This document shows positions 40,212-45,876 of a stretch of DNA of 64,000 nucleotides, piece by piece (position 1 is the stretch's first letter; each line of letters begins with the position of its first letter). Position numbers and translations under genes: made by a program. Under the pieces are notes generated by a model. It saw only the letters and a program-made list of their open reading frames with translations. It was not told the origin of the DNA and ran no database searches. This DNA comes from Halobaculum gomorrense (lineage in GTDB: Archaea > Halobacteriota > Halobacteria > Halobacteriales > Haloferacaceae): assembly GCF_900129775.1 (NCBI RefSeq), contig NZ_FQWV01000005.1:1-64000 (forward strand). The letters run 5' to 3'.

Positions 40212-40616
40212 ATGGCCAAGGACACCGTCCGGTACCCTGATAAGGTCGTCGACGAAATCGACGCCCTCGTCGACGACGGCGTCTTCGAGAGCAAGTCCGA
40301 GTTCTACCGCTTCTCCGCCGAGTACGTGCTCGCGCTCGTCAGCGACGAGTGGGAGCCGGAGACGTTCAACTACGGCGAGATCCGCGAGGAGCTGGACCTC
40401 CAGGAGGAGCCCGTGCTGCTCGGGGCCGATGGCGGCCGCGACTTCCTCAACGCGGTCATCACGGTCCGCCAACTCGGTTTGCGCAACGACTTCGCGGAGG
40501 CCGAGCAGTTCATCGACGAGAACTACGAGACCACCGACCGCTCCGGTATGATCCTGGAGGAGCTGCTGCGTGTCTACCGCGACCGCGCCGAGAACGGCTC
40601 CACGTCCGGCGTCTGA
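40212..40616 (+). CDS. ribbon-helix-helix regulator, CdrL-like
   Basis: 134 residues from ATG 40212 (MAKDTVRYPDKVVDEIDALV), preceded by a GGAGGA purine box. Residues 1-50 form a ribbon-helix-helix DNA-binding domain (TVRYPDKVVDEIDALVDDGV, FESKSEFYRFSAEYVLALVS). The C-terminal ~80 residues (FLNAVITVRQLGLRNDFAEA, EQFIDENYETTDRSGMI) distinguish it from the short CdrS. CdrL in Halobacterium regulates the cdrS-ftsZ2 cell-division operon, and this is my best match by domain layout. cdrS and ftsZ2 are not in the window. Confidence 0.8.
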   Translation: MAKDTVRYPDKVVDEIDALVDDGVFESKSEFYRFSAEYVLALVSDEWEPETFNYGEIREELDLQEEPVLLGADGGRDFLNAVITVRQLGLRNDFAEAEQFIDENYETTDRSGMILEELLRVYRDRAENGSTSGV

Positions 40617-40680
40617 CGGCAGGCCGCCCGCTTCTCCGCGTTCGACACCCGAACCGCCTACGCCAGCGTCGGCGCCCGTC

Positions 40681-40725
40681 GACCGGTACCGTCTACGGGG
40701 CGCGTGGACCGGTAACGTCTACACC
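40681..40725. repeat. direct repeat upstream of the MutS-like gene
   Basis: GACCGGTACCGTCTAC (from 40681) recurs as GACCGGTAACGTCTAC (from 40709) with one mismatch and 28-base spacing, 20-60 bases before ATG 40747. The position suits an operator or a duplicated promoter element, but no factor is known. Confidence 0.4.
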
Positions 40726-40746
40726 GCTCCGTCCACACGGATTCGT

Positions 40747-42501
40747 ATGCGACTGGAACGGTACTGGGGCGTCGGCCCGAAGACCGCCGAGACGCTCCGC
40801 GAGTCGCTCGGCGAGGCGGCGGCCGTCGACGCCATCGAGTCGGCGGACGTGCGCGCGCTCGTCGACGCCGGCGTTCCGCGCGGCCGGGCGACCCGCGTGC
40901 TCCGCCGGGCGAACGGCCGCGAGGCGATGGACCTGTTCGGCACCCGCGACGCCCGCGAGGTGTACGACGACCTGCTCGATCTCGCCGCGGGGTACGCGGT
41001 CACCGCCCACGCCGCCGACCGGGTGCGCGTGCTCACGCCGCTCGGGAGCGACCAGCGGCGCGAGGGCCGGCTCGACGACGTGCTCGAAGCCCGCGACGCG
41101 TGGGTCGACCTGAGCGAGGCCGACCGCGAGTTGGTCCTCGACGCGTTCGCCGAGTACGACGAGGCGGGAGGGACCGACCGCGCGGCCATCGAGTGCGCGC
41201 TCGCGCTCCGGGAGGCGGGGCTGCGCGGCGGCACCTTCGCCGCGCTCGACGGCGTCGATGAGGCAGCCCTGCGCGAGGCCGCCGCCGCGCTGGCTGCGCT
41301 CACCGACGACGGCGTCGCCGCGGGCGCCGACGAACGACTCGACCGCCTGCGCGAGCGCGCTGCCGACGCCCGCGACCTCGCGGACTCGGCGTTCGACGTG
41401 GTCGAGACGGTTCGCGAGCGCGGCGCACGCGACGCCGACGCGTTCCGGTCGGCGGTCGTCGAGTACGTCGCCGGCGAGACGGGGCTCGCCCGCGGGCGCG
41501 TCGAGTCGGCGGCCCCCGACGGCGCCGTCGACTCCGCGGACTTCGTCGGCTCCACGCTACGCACGCTCGCCGACGAGTTGGAGGCGGCGGCCGACGAGCG
41601 GGCCGCCGAGGTCCGCGCCGAACTGGAGACCGACGTGGCCGACGGCGGCGCCGACGTGGCGACCGTCGTCGACGCTGTCTCCGATATCGCCTTCTCCCTC
41701 TCGCTGGCGCGGTTCGCCGTCGCACACGACCTCTCGCGGCCCGGCCTCGCCGGCGACGGCGTCGCGGTCGCGAACGCCCGGAACCTCTTTCTCTCGGGCG
41801 ACGTGCAGCCGGTCAGCTACGGCGTCGGCGACCACGGTCTCCCGAGCGACGCGTCCGGCGGTCGGATCCCGGCCGGCGACCGCGTCGCCGTGCTCACGGG
41901 GGCCAACTCCGGCGGGAAGACGACGCTGCTGGAGACGGTCTGTCAGGTCGTGATCCTCGCGTCGATGGGGCTACCGGTTCCCGCCGAGGCCGCCGAAGTC
42001 GGCCGCTTCGACACCGTCGTGTTCCACCGCCGGCACGCGTCGTTCAACGCCGGCGTGCTCGAATCGACGCTGAAGTCCGTGGTTCCGCCGCTGGTCGGCG
42101 AGGGCCGCACCCTGATGCTCGTCGACGAGTTCGAGGCGATCACCGAGCCCGGACGCGCTGCGGACCTGCTCAACGGCCTCGTGGAGCTCACGGTCGACCG
42201 CGGCGCCGTCGGCGTGTACGTCACCCACCTCGCAGAGGACCTCTCGCCGCTGCCAGACGCCGCGCGCGTGGACGGCATCTTCGCGGAGGGCCTCACGAAC
42301 GACCTTGACCTGCTCGTCGACTACCAGCCCCGCTTCGGCGTCGTCGGCAAGTCGACGCCGGAGTTCATCGTCTCGCGGCTCGTCGCCAACGCCTCCGACC
42401 GCGCGGTCCGCCAGGGGTTCGAGGAGCTCGCCTCCGCGGTCGGTGAGGAGGCGGTCCAGCGGACGCTCTCCGACGTGGAGTGGGCGGGCGGCGAGGAGTG
42501 A
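40747..42501 (+). CDS. MutS-like ATPase with N-terminal helix-hairpin-helix
   Basis: 584 residues from ATG 40747 (MRLERYWGVGPKTAETLRES). A helix-hairpin-helix occupies about 1-55. A long Ala/Asp-rich helical core region (about 120-330) corresponds to the MutS lever/clamp. The ATPase domain has VAVLTGANSGGKTTLLETVC (Walker A), TLMLVDEFEAITEPGRAADL (Walker B plus D-loop) and GVYVTHLAEDLS (H-loop). The N-terminal mismatch-binding domain of MutS1 is absent, so this is the archaeal MutS-related type, perhaps acting on branched DNA rather than classical mismatches. Confidence 0.85.
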   Translation: MRLERYWGVGPKTAETLRESLGEAAAVDAIESADVRALVDAGVPRGRATRVLRRANGREAMDLFGTRDAREVYDDLLDLAAGYAVTAHAADRVRVLTPLGSDQRREGRLDDVLEARDAWVDLSEADRELVLDAFAEYDEAGGTDRAAIECALALREAGLRGGTFAALDGVDEAALREAAAALAALTDDGVAAGADERLDRLRERAADARDLADSAFDVVETVRERGARDADAFRSAVVEYVAGETGLARGRVESAAPDGAVDSADFVGSTLRTLADELEAAADERAAEVRAELETDVADGGADVATVVDAVSDIAFSLSLARFAVAHDLSRPGLAGDGVAVANARNLFLSGDVQPVSYGVGDHGLPSDASGGRIPAGDRVAVLTGANSGGKTTLLETVCQVVILASMGLPVPAEAAEVGRFDTVVFHRRHASFNAGVLESTLKSVVPPLVGEGRTLMLVDEFEAITEPGRAADLLNGLVELTVDRGAVGVYVTHLAEDLSPLPDAARVDGIFAEGLTNDLDLLVDYQPRFGVVGKSTPEFIVSRLVANASDRAVRQGFEELASAVGEEAVQRTLSDVEWAGGEE

Positions 42502-42533: not shown

Positions 42534-43307
42534 TTAGTCAGCCGTCGCCGTGGGGACTTCGCTCTCGAATTTGTCCCCGTCAACAGATTTGGCATCGTTC
42601 GACACTCGGTCGGTGCCAAATATCCCCCGGTGTTCGTGCACGACCCAGGTGTACGGTACCTTCGCGGCCACGTCCATGAACGTCACCAGCATCGCGGTAC
42701 CGAGCGTCGACACCAGCCCGAATCCGACAGGACTCGCGAGCCAAATGACAGGATACAGCAGCCAGAGGACGCCGACCTGGTTGCGGAGGCGGAGGAAGAG
42801 ACGCTTGCGTTCCGGCGTCGTCGTGTTCGCCCGTCGCGGATACTGAACGAACATGACGTACAGCATGAGGAGGAACGCGACCGACGACACCGCGAACGCG
42901 CCCCACCGGAGCATCCCCGTCGTCGTCGTGGCGACGAAGCCAGTCAGGATCATGGTCGCGTCCAATCCGGCGGCGCCGTACACGACCGAGCGGTCGACGT
43001 CGACGACGTGGCCGACGTACCCGACGAGCACCGGCGTCGTCACCAGCCAGTCGAGGTACCGCATCCCCTCGACATCGTACCCGTTGATCGTGAATACGCC
43101 GATACCGAAGGTCATCGACGCGTACGACAGCGCTGCGAACGCCGGAATCACGAGCAGCACCCGGAACCGGCCGGATCCGGAATCGAGCGTCTCGTCGCGC
43201 AACAGCCATCCGACGACCGCGATACCCAGGAGCATGCCGAGCGTTCCGACCCCGTACACGACCGAACTGAGGCCGTCGACGGAGGGCGTCAGCACGTCCG
43301 GGATCAT
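42534..43307 (-). CDS. sopI: sensory rhodopsin I
   Basis: 257 residues, seven helices. [17 protein letters not shown] (Arg83, Asp86) has the SRI-type Tyr at the bacteriorhodopsin Asp96 position. [14 protein letters not shown] gives retinal Schiff-base Lys216. [15 protein letters not shown] also matches SRI better than SRII or pumps. The residue equivalent to the functionally important His166 of Halobacterium SRI is Gln177 ([11 protein letters not shown]). The C-terminal tail is long and acidic. Its start overlaps the htrI stop (ATGA at 43304-43307), the same order as in Halobacterium htrI-sopI. It mediates colour-sensing phototaxis through HtrI. Confidence 0.88.
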
Positions 43308-44905
43308 CGGCGCTCACCCCCGTCGGTCCGCTCGGCTCCGTCCAGCGGCCCGCCGCCGTCGCTCACCGCCCGCGCCGTCGACTCGCCGGCCCCGGACGCG
43401 GCGTCGCCGCCGGCCGCAGACGTTGCGCGCGACTCACGGAGGTCGAACTCCGCGAGCACGTCGAGCAAGTCGTCCGAGCGCGCGCGGAACGTCTCCGACT
43501 CCTCGACGACGGCGTCGACGGCGGTCGACTGCTCGGTGGCGGCGGCATCCGCCTCGGCGGCGCGGTCGGCCGTCCGGTCGGAGTTCTCCGCGAGGTCGTC
43601 GATCGTCTCGGAGACGCCCGCGGCCGCCGACGCCTGCTCGGCGGTCGCGTCGCTGATCTCGCGGACGCCCCGGTCGAGGTCGTCGACGGCCTCCGCGATG
43701 TCGTCGAGGCGGTCGACGGCCTCGGCGACGGTGGTCGAGCCGTCGCTCACCTGCTCGCTCGTCGCGCGGATCGCCTCGACCGCGCGCTCTGTCTCGGTTC
43801 GGACCTCGTCGATCATCCCGGCGATCGCGTCCGCGCGGTCGCCGGTGTCCTCGGCGAGCCCCTTCACCTCCTCGGCGACGACCGCGAAGCCGTCGCCGGC
43901 GTTGCCCGCGTCGCCGCCGGCGCGCGCGGCCTCGATGGAGGCGTTGAGCGCGAGCATGTTCGTCTGCTCGGCGATGTCGCGGATGAGCTCGGCCGCCTCC
44001 GTGATCTCGGCGGTCGCCTCGTCGAGGGTCTCGATGCGGTCGACCGCCTCGCCCATCGTCTCGTCGACCTCGCTCATCGTCTCGATCGCGTCGCCCGCGG
44101 CCGAGCGTGCCTCCTCGGAGGCGTCCGCCGCCTCGTCGGTCGTCTCGACGAGCGACTCGGTCGTCGCGGCCACCTCCTCGGCGGTCGCTGAGAGGTCGGC
44201 CGTCTCTTCGGCGCCCGTCCGCGCGGTCGCGCGCTGCTCGTCGGTCGCGGCGTCGATGTCGTCGGTCGCCGCGAGCACGTCGTCGGTGCGCTCGTCGATC
44301 CGCTCGGCGGCGGCGCGCACGTCCGTGGCCCCGTCGGCCACGTCGCCCGCGAAGGTGTCCACCCGCGCCAGCGCGACCTCCAGCTCGTCGACGGCGTCGT
44401 TGAACGCCGTCCCGACGGTCTCCATCGCGTCGTGCTCGCGGTCGACCTCCACTCGGCGACGGAGGTCGCCATCGGCGACCGCGCGCATCGTCTCCGCGTA
44501 CTCGGTCGCCGTGCGCTGGTAGTCTTCGGCGAGCGACTGCGCGCGCGCCTCTGCGGCCTCGGCCTCCGCGCGAGCCTCGTCGGCCTCCTCGATCCGGGAG
44601 GCGAGCGAGCGCCGCATCCGGTCGACCGAGCTGTACACCCGCCCGAGTTCGTCCGCCCGAGAGGTCCGGACGGCCACGTCGAGGTCGCCGTCCGCGATCG
44701 CCTCCGTCTGTTCCTCCAGCGTCCGCATGGACACGACGGTGTTCGTCCCGAGATACGCCCCGAGCACCACCTGCCCGGCGGTCGCCATCAGCATCGTCCC
44801 GACGACGTTGCGCGTCACGAGCCCGTAGCCGACGGTCGCACCCGTGGTGAGCGCGAAGCCGACCAGAAGCTTCGCCGCGAAACTCCGTCGAAGCAGTTGC
44901 ACCAT
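43304..44905 (-). CDS. htrI: sensory rhodopsin I transducer (methyl-accepting)
   Basis: 533 residues from ATG 44905 ([20 protein letters not shown]). Two membrane helices with almost no periplasmic loop are the HtrI design, unlike HtrII or ligand-binding MCPs. Two HAMP-like segments follow ([20 protein letters not shown] and [20 protein letters not shown]). The signalling tip [20 protein letters not shown] is intact, flanked by Ala/Glu-rich methylation helices. It passes the SopI signal to CheA/CheW and the archaellum. No che genes lie in the window. A GATATTTTG element near 44951-44960 may be the TATA box. Confidence 0.9.
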
Positions 44906-45003
44906 TCTATCCGTCCGATCGGCGGTCGGACGTATCAAGCCAGTCCGCAAAATATCGCGTTTGAATACCACGGTGCCGCCTCCGATATGCCTCGACGCTG
45001 CGA

Positions 45004-45876
45004 CTACCCGAACGCGCCGAGGCTCGACTGGAGGTCGCGCTCGGTGTCGCCCGCTTCGATCTCGTATCCGACGAGGTCGCGCATGTCGACCGCGTACGCC
45101 GTCCCGCTGGTCTCCAGCACGAGGAGCCGTCCCTTCGTGGCGACGACGGTGCCCGAGGCGAGCGTCTCGGCCACGGGGCGCTCGGCGAGGTCGAGCCCGT
45201 AGTCGAACTCGAATCGCTCCTCGTACTCGACGCCGGCGAGCAGCGCGTCCCACGCGTCGTCGTCCACTCGCTCTGCGAGGCCGGCGATCTTGGTCGGGAC
45301 CCGGACCCGGTCGGGGAGCCCGTCGGTTCCCTCGGCGGGGGCAGCGGTCGGCGACCCACGGGCGTCGCCCGCGTCGTCGCCGTCGCTTCGGGCGGCCCGT
45401 TCGAGTCCGTTGGCGGCGATCTCGGCTTCGATCTCGCGGGCGATCCGACCGTTCTCGACGGTCCGGAGGTGGACCGCGCGGTCGGCGCCCTGCTCGCGCA
45501 GTCGGGTGTTGAGGCGCCACTCCCTCGTGACGCCCACCTTGAACGTGTCCGGGGCGAACGCGGCCACGTAGACCGCGTGGTCGTCGAAGCAGTCCATCTC
45601 ATCTTTGAGGCAGGTTCCGGTGCACCGCGCGCACACCCACGTCGACCGGTGGTCCTCGCAGTACGGCGCCGCGTCGGCGCCGCAGGCGACGTGCCCGCCG
45701 TCGTGGACCGTTCCCGCACAGCGCCGCTCGCCGAGGCGATAGGAGAGATCGGTGCCCGGGTCGAGGGCGATCCGATCGACCTCGCCGGTCGCGGTCCCGG
45801 GCGAAGCGTTCGGGTCCGGCGCGCCGTCGCTCACGAACAGCGCGCCCGCCGGTGTCTCGTACCCCACGATCTGCAC
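45004..45876 (-). CDS. DUF2797 domain protein
   Basis: 290 residues. A Cys/His cluster near residues 50-95 suggests zinc binding: [74 protein letters not shown] follows, reminiscent of a GIY-YIG-like nuclease strand, and the family is broadly conserved in archaea and actinobacteria. The C-terminal [20 protein letters not shown] is typical. The biochemical role is unknown. It is on the same strand as htrI but 99 bases upstream of it, and unrelated in function. Confidence 0.85.

Follow-up and report, generated by a model that had tools for sequence, protein, structure and literature searches.

Introduction

Sensory rhodopsin I (SRI) absorbs near 560-590 nm and mediates attraction to orange light and, upon absorption of a second photon, repulsion from near-UV light. 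To our knowledge, every tested replacement of SRI His166 disturbed signalling, and we know of no H166Q exchange among the SRI mutants. How one receptor gives opposite signals depending on the colour of light is an old question on SRI, studied through His166 of the receptor and Glu56 of its transducer HtrI. According to a review (PMC3274258), the signal is inverted by mutations at SRI Asn165, SRI His166 and HtrI Glu56, which shift the Schiff base towards the outside; it is restored by changes at HtrI Asn53, SRI '84' and SRI Arg215.

Here, we analyse a rhodopsin-transducer gene pair encoded within a stretch of 64,000 nucleotides from Halobaculum gomorrense (contig NZ_FQWV01000005.1, positions 1 to 64,000), referred to as the window. 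Our data suggest that it encodes a functional, co-adapted SRI-HtrI phototaxis complex of a sister lineage to the known SRIs, with Gln at the position of His166, a reading that we consider rather probable.

Results

The window encodes an SRI-type receptor with glutamine at position 166

The sopI-like gene (42534..43307, minus strand) encodes an SRI-type sensory rhodopsin of 257 amino acids, assigned from its open reading frame, Pfam, phmmer and the tree. The frame matches Bac_rhodopsin in Pfam at 6.4e-44, with no match for this rhodopsin in NCBIfam, and the nearest solved sequence is PDB 9wxr_A ('Rhodopsin,Chemotaxis protein'; phmmer E 1.3e-48). In the phmmer alignment Gln177 of the window protein, placed from sequence and alignments at codon CAG (42777..42779, minus strand), faces residue 166 of the 9wxr_A chain, a His; by the same count, the chain's own, the Asp of LDW is D76 and the retinal Lys K205. 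This pairing recurs in MAFFT alignments of 60 and 77 rows and bears out the initial annotation, which had equated Gln177 with His166 by hand alignment; the alignment of haloarchaeal SRIs at this position, which it had proposed as a check, places no His at the site of the window protein.

Two trivial causes of this Gln were ruled out: misalignment by the ungapped context (RNQVGVLW in the window protein versus KNHIGLLW), and a sequencing error or a single odd strain by the presence of Gln in 8/8 distinct members of a clade using two Gln codons (CAG in six, CAA in two). The tally of His codons in the other SRI loci (58 CAC, 3 CAT) counts duplicate loci and is kept out of the argument. An AlphaFold2 model of the rhodopsin, computed for the receptor alone without retinal or partner, has seven long helices (pLDDT 87.6) and is silent on position 166. 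A fold search with this model returned SRII, xenorhodopsin and BR structures on top and 9wxr was absent among the best 50 shown, so that this search does not discriminate.

The adjacent gene encodes a two-helix transducer

The htrI-like transducer gene (43304..44905, minus strand) encodes a protein of 533 amino acids with an N-terminal membrane stretch, a HAMP domain (Pfam, 3.7e-13) and an MCP signalling domain (MCPsignal, 1.5e-37); in the program-made list of open reading frames this frame opens at a GTG earlier than the start at 44905. The htrI stop overlaps the sopI start in ATGA (43304-43307), the overlap within the Gln clade being four bases in seven members and one base in L050. Upstream of htrI lies a putative promoter-like block (44933..44956, minus strand) with GATATTTTGCGG at 44945-44956 and TTGATA at 44933-44938, of which GATA and TTGAT are kept in the alignment of 8/8 Gln-clade rows.

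As a reference we used L072, which we take to be the SRI/HtrI pair of Halobacterium salinarum type. By alignment with its transducer, a two-helix HtrI lacking a large periplasmic domain adjoins the rhodopsin in 8/8 members of the clade. Also by alignment, the membrane stretch comprises residues 9-60 of the window HtrI (44726..44881, minus strand) and holds Y27, Q45, Y51, L52 and N55, corresponding to 28, 46, 52, 53 and 56 in L072 numbering, which is used below. Compared with the four HtrII-like rows L083-L086, the loop after EAARA at the signalling tip is extended in most HtrI rows by a variable Gly/Asp-rich insert.

Glutamine at position 166 is a trait of a whole clade

We searched for relatives of the window protein in genomes of its family (170), its order (392, an even draw from a larger group) and its class (391, an even draw overlapping widely with the others); of the matches weaker than approximately 1e-40 a sample was taken, serving as SRII, BR and MR-like outgroups. 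Among the matches listed, Gln-type SRIs occur in eight genomes (G000, G010, G011, G014, G016, G017, G019 and G021), i.e. in 7/11 genomes examined of the window's genus and in one of another genus (G021); G012, G013, G015 and G018 of the window's genus show no SRI match among the matches listed. The SRI proteins L007 (G017) and L004 (Halobaculum saliterrae) are identical and were counted once. A search for related loci in a collection of genome contigs returned one locus.

In the 77-row alignment, position 166 is Gln in 8/8 rows of the Gln clade and His in 42/42 other SRIs, whereas it is Leu in 4/4 MR-like rows, Leu (8), Ile (4) or Val (2) in 14 SRIIs and Leu (5), Ile (3) or Met (1) in nine BRs. 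Two additional SRIs, one of G077 and one encoded on a plasmid of Haloarcula litorea, also carry His. The Gln clade thus lacks a His that is kept in every SRI row read outside it, and on these grounds we treat it as sister to the His-SRIs and not as part of the canonical His166 SRIs. Since 103 of the 257 positions are invariant across all clade members, the invariance of the Gln by itself is weak evidence. Our literature search turned up no paper with Gln at SRI position 166, a weak result as most subscription papers lay outside its reach. Gln at position 166 is a real clade-wide variant of SRI-HtrI and not a lone substitution. The initial annotation's reading of the Gln as a feature of an SRI-HtrI pair stands as far as the pair and the residue are concerned; it was incomplete in that the Gln is shared by 8/8 members and HtrI differs as well.

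Phylogeny places the Gln-type SRIs beside the His-SRIs

We built a maximum-likelihood tree of the 77 rows from an alignment lacking columns 166 and 135. The Gln clade forms a single branch (100/96), the His-SRIs form another (99/93), and both are joined (100/99), standing apart from the SRII, BR and MR-like rows, group names that we assigned by motif to groups taken from the tree itself. Together with the Pfam matches and the adjacent htrI, this grouping confirms the assignment as an SRI-HtrI type pair made from the sequence in the initial annotation. The Gln clade does not group with SRII, and the AU test rejects joining it to the MR-like rows (p-AU 0.004). Joining it to one or the other of two early His subclades is not rejected (p-AU 0.056 and 0.062); the groups in these tests were chosen after the tree was seen. 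In the tree the Gln clade and the His-SRIs are sister groups, a nesting of the former inside the latter not being formally rejected. The simple reading that an ancestral His was lost is not upheld, given the sister placement and the p-AU values of 0.056 and 0.062 for nesting.

Changes from Leu to Gln, Leu to His and His to Gln each take one base from suitable codons. With Leu, Ile, Val or Met in the outgroups and the results of the AU tests, the Gln may have arisen after, before or beside the His. Other sites conflict and do not settle the polarity: at 134, 164, 169 and 211 the Gln clade is closer to the outgroups than the His clade is, whereas at 94 and 209 it departs from both. A tree of 36 HtrI rows built by a quick method recovers the same split (SH-aLRT 100 for the Gln and 91 for the His side), with warnings of long branches for L079, L083, L056, L075 and L057 and of long branches meeting.

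The retinal site is conserved while position 135 and the helix F/G region differ

R73, D76, W77, T80, T81, D106, W171, Y174, P175, W178, D201 and K205 are kept in 8/8 Gln-clade rows, and M109, S131 and A204 of the window protein match the His-SRIs. Position 166 lies outside the 23 pocket columns that we tabulated. Position 135 is Phe in 8/8 members of the Gln clade; the other 42 SRIs have His (36), Tyr (5) or Phe (1), so that His at 135 is not general in SRI. The Tyr is found in an early His-SRI subclade comprising L013, L014, L016, L022 and L078. From our alignment and the review (PMC3274258), which places His131 of Salinibacter SRI near the ionone ring, position 135 would correspond to this chloride-site His131. 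We suggest H135F as a likelier source of any shift in colour than Gln166. In a subclade of Gln-type SRIs (L009, L010 and L011) TTP is changed to TTA and M109F and L84M occur in or near the pocket, with S131A in addition in L010 and L011; these changes may confer another colour.

Twenty-two SRI sites are fixed differently in the Gln clade, ten of which fall into the cytoplasmic halves of helices F and G (29/234 positions; p 4e-5). Under stricter rules for choosing sites the region holds 6/15 (p 0.005) and 5/9 (p 0.002); the regions were drawn after the list of sites was known, making all three p values optimistic.

The transducer varies together with the receptor

We compared the transducers of eight Gln, 21 His and seven outgroup pairs, leaving out L060, whose N-terminus was not readable, as well as L054 and L065-L067, for which our motif rule gave no transducer. 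The set Y28-Q46-Y52-L53-N56 is present in 8/8 Gln pairs, in 0/21 readable His pairs and in 0/7 outgroup pairs. Position 46 is Leu in 21/21 His pairs and 7/7 outgroup pairs, and Y28 occurs in 2/7 outgroup transducers. Under the loosest rule 80 HtrI sites are specific to the clade, 19 of these within residues 1-60 (59/496 positions; p 8e-4) and 61 outside; stricter rules give 9/31 (p 0.006) and 5/7 (p 4e-4) within this region. In L051, L052 and L053, HtrI is 82-90% and SRI 55-61% identical to the window proteins, the transducer being far more conserved than the receptor.

Glu56 is missing in 9/21 readable partners of His-SRIs and in three more judged by eye. Asn56 accompanies a His-SRI in 2/21 partners and, by eye, in L054, L065 and L066, all of which have Leu46 together with Asn56 and carry Thr53, Thr53 and Asn53, respectively. 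Because of these partners, an E56N exchange does not distinguish the clade. As Gln46 lies in the second membrane helix of just the pairs with Gln166, a direct contact between SRI Gln166 and HtrI Gln46 is an attractive guess. The covariation between SRI 166 and HtrI amounts to one divergence, and drift along a single long branch could account for the differences in HtrI. Since the HtrI membrane stretch differs too, the phenotypes seen with point mutants in Halobacterium cannot be carried over to the Gln clade.

These comparisons bear on the idea that having Gln instead of His is near-neutral and leaves an ordinary SRI with the photocycle, colour and sign of Halobacterium SRI. The retention of the tabulated retinal-site core agrees with it, as does the presence of output genes described below; the His in 42/42 distinct other SRI rows and in the two found later points to a constrained site, and HtrI differs along with the receptor, leaving near-neutrality improbable in our view.

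The pair is probably maintained by selection in genomes with output genes

Within the Gln clade, dN is 0.04-0.37, dS 0.15-0.90 and dN/dS 0.20-0.62 over 28 pairs (NG86; the larger dS values may be saturated). The genome announcement of 'Ca. Halobonum tyrrellensis' (PMC3861417) reports a putative sensory rhodopsin without a flagellar system, and because of this precedent we examined whether the output had been lost. Matches to FlaD/E and CheA are present in 8/8 genomes with a Gln-type SRI and overall in 53 and 51, respectively, of the 54 genomes examined, ruling out a loss of the phototaxis output.

In the window, a gene for a MutS domain V ATPase (40570-42501, plus strand) is convergent with sopI and a gene for a DUF2797 protein (45004-45876, minus strand) lies just upstream of htrI. 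The MutS-like gene is found at 8/8 Gln-SRI loci searched (L004 and L047-L053, L004 and L049 being from the same organism) and at 0/5 His-SRI loci; the DUF2797 gene is found at 7/8 Gln-SRI loci, being absent at L051. The genome of the window also encodes a BR-like rhodopsin (L003) and a separate SRII-like rhodopsin (L002) beside a transducer gene. In the draft genome G021 (L009, L051) the Gln-type SRI is the only match to Bac_rhodopsin (PF01036), no pump being found, and FlaD/E and CheA are present.

A pair that is degenerate or re-used and no longer serves as a phototaxis receptor might be suspected from its being the only detected rhodopsin of G021 and from the altered pocket residues (M109F, L84M) of three clade members. 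It is very unlikely considering that 8/8 members retain open reading frames, the gene overlap and the promoter-like block, that dN/dS indicates purifying selection, that the retinal Lys, the Asp counterions and the motif of the transducer tip are retained in 8/8, and that CheA and FlaD/E matches accompany all eight.

Discussion

The record of signal inversion by His166 mutations in the review (PMC3274258) makes a functional difference of the Gln clade a fair hypothesis, and the initial annotation had raised the sign of the signal as one such difference. The positions named there read as follows. Relative to L072, the Gln clade differs at SRI 166 and 215 and at HtrI 56 and 53, and SRI 165 is kept. 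SRI 215 is His in the Gln clade and also in 5/46 other rows of the 60-row alignment. At SRI 84 L072 has Leu, as opposed to the 'Arg84' of the review (PMC3274258), which therefore probably names the mutant residue.

A receptor of opposite or single sign, in which orange light repels or the two-photon reversal by near-UV light is missing because Gln166 and HtrI Asn56 favour the conformer with an outward-opening Schiff base, is a doubtful alternative. Two of the three inverting positions in the review (PMC3274258) differ here (Q166 and N56), and G021, having no other PF01036 match, lacks a detected pump for which moving towards orange light would be of use. On the other hand, the suppressor positions are changed too (Leu at HtrI 53, His at SRI 215) and may restore the sign, N56 is found with His-SRIs as well (2/21 and three by eye), and other rhodopsins are present in 7/8 genomes with a Gln-type SRI. 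With inverting and restoring positions both altered and Glu56 absent in 9/21 His partners, the sign is not readable from sequence; we hold compensation with the usual sign to be likelier than inversion. The more specific proposal of a naturally sign-switched or single-sign SRI, in which Q166 together with HtrI Q46, Y52, L53 and N56 would poise the dark state outward-open, with orange light repelling or the near-UV reversal gone, appears quite doubtful to us. If true, evolution would have used the same switch that the Halobacterium mutants revealed, and the ancestral SRI may have been without both hallmark histidines.

We favour a model according to which the Gln pair is a co-adapted phototaxis complex. 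Light would isomerise the retinal bound to Lys216 (K205), the Schiff base would release and later regain its proton, helices F and G would shift, and TM2 of HtrI would relay the change via HAMP to CheA and the archaellum. The pair would thus signal, and its attractant sign would be kept through compensation involving HtrI 53 and 56 and SRI 215. Without an imidazole at position 166, the return of the proton (M decay) would be timed differently and show another pH dependence compared to His-SRIs. A clade without His166 and with an altered HtrI is a ready-made experiment on the need for an imidazole in setting the sign and in Schiff base reprotonation, and on the HtrI residues that compensate for it.

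Compared with the known SRI-HtrI systems (9wxr_A, L072), the window shares the gene order htrI-sopI, an HtrI with HAMP and MCP domains and, by alignment, membrane stretches that are not separated by a large insert, as well as the retinal Lys, R73, D76 and D201, and these systems join its clade at 100/99. It differs from them in Gln for His166, Phe for His135, Thr-Trp-Val for Val-Tyr-Phe at 209-211 and His for Arg215, and the HtrI of its clade differs from that of L072 in Y28, Q46, Y52, L53 and N56. The Gln-type SRI of Halobaculum saliterrae (NZ_WUUS01000007.1, L004) is 78% identical to the window protein, has the same Gln and the same two flanking genes, and shows no difference at the positions discussed. 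The outgroup rows that we take to be SRII with HtrII share the retinal-site core, and Phe135 occurs in 7/14 SRIIs; they differ in forming a separate branch, in Leu, Ile or Val at 166, in Gly or Ala at 131 (13/14) and in Val, Ile or Leu at 109, compared to S131 and M109 of the window. The rhodopsins L079, L081, L082 and L102, presumably MR/SRM-like, form the next branch outside SRI and have Leu at 166, and the N-termini of their transducers differ from HtrI of the Gln clade. Asn at the position of HtrI 56 is found in three of the seven outgroup transducers read, three of the seven belonging to MR-like rhodopsins.
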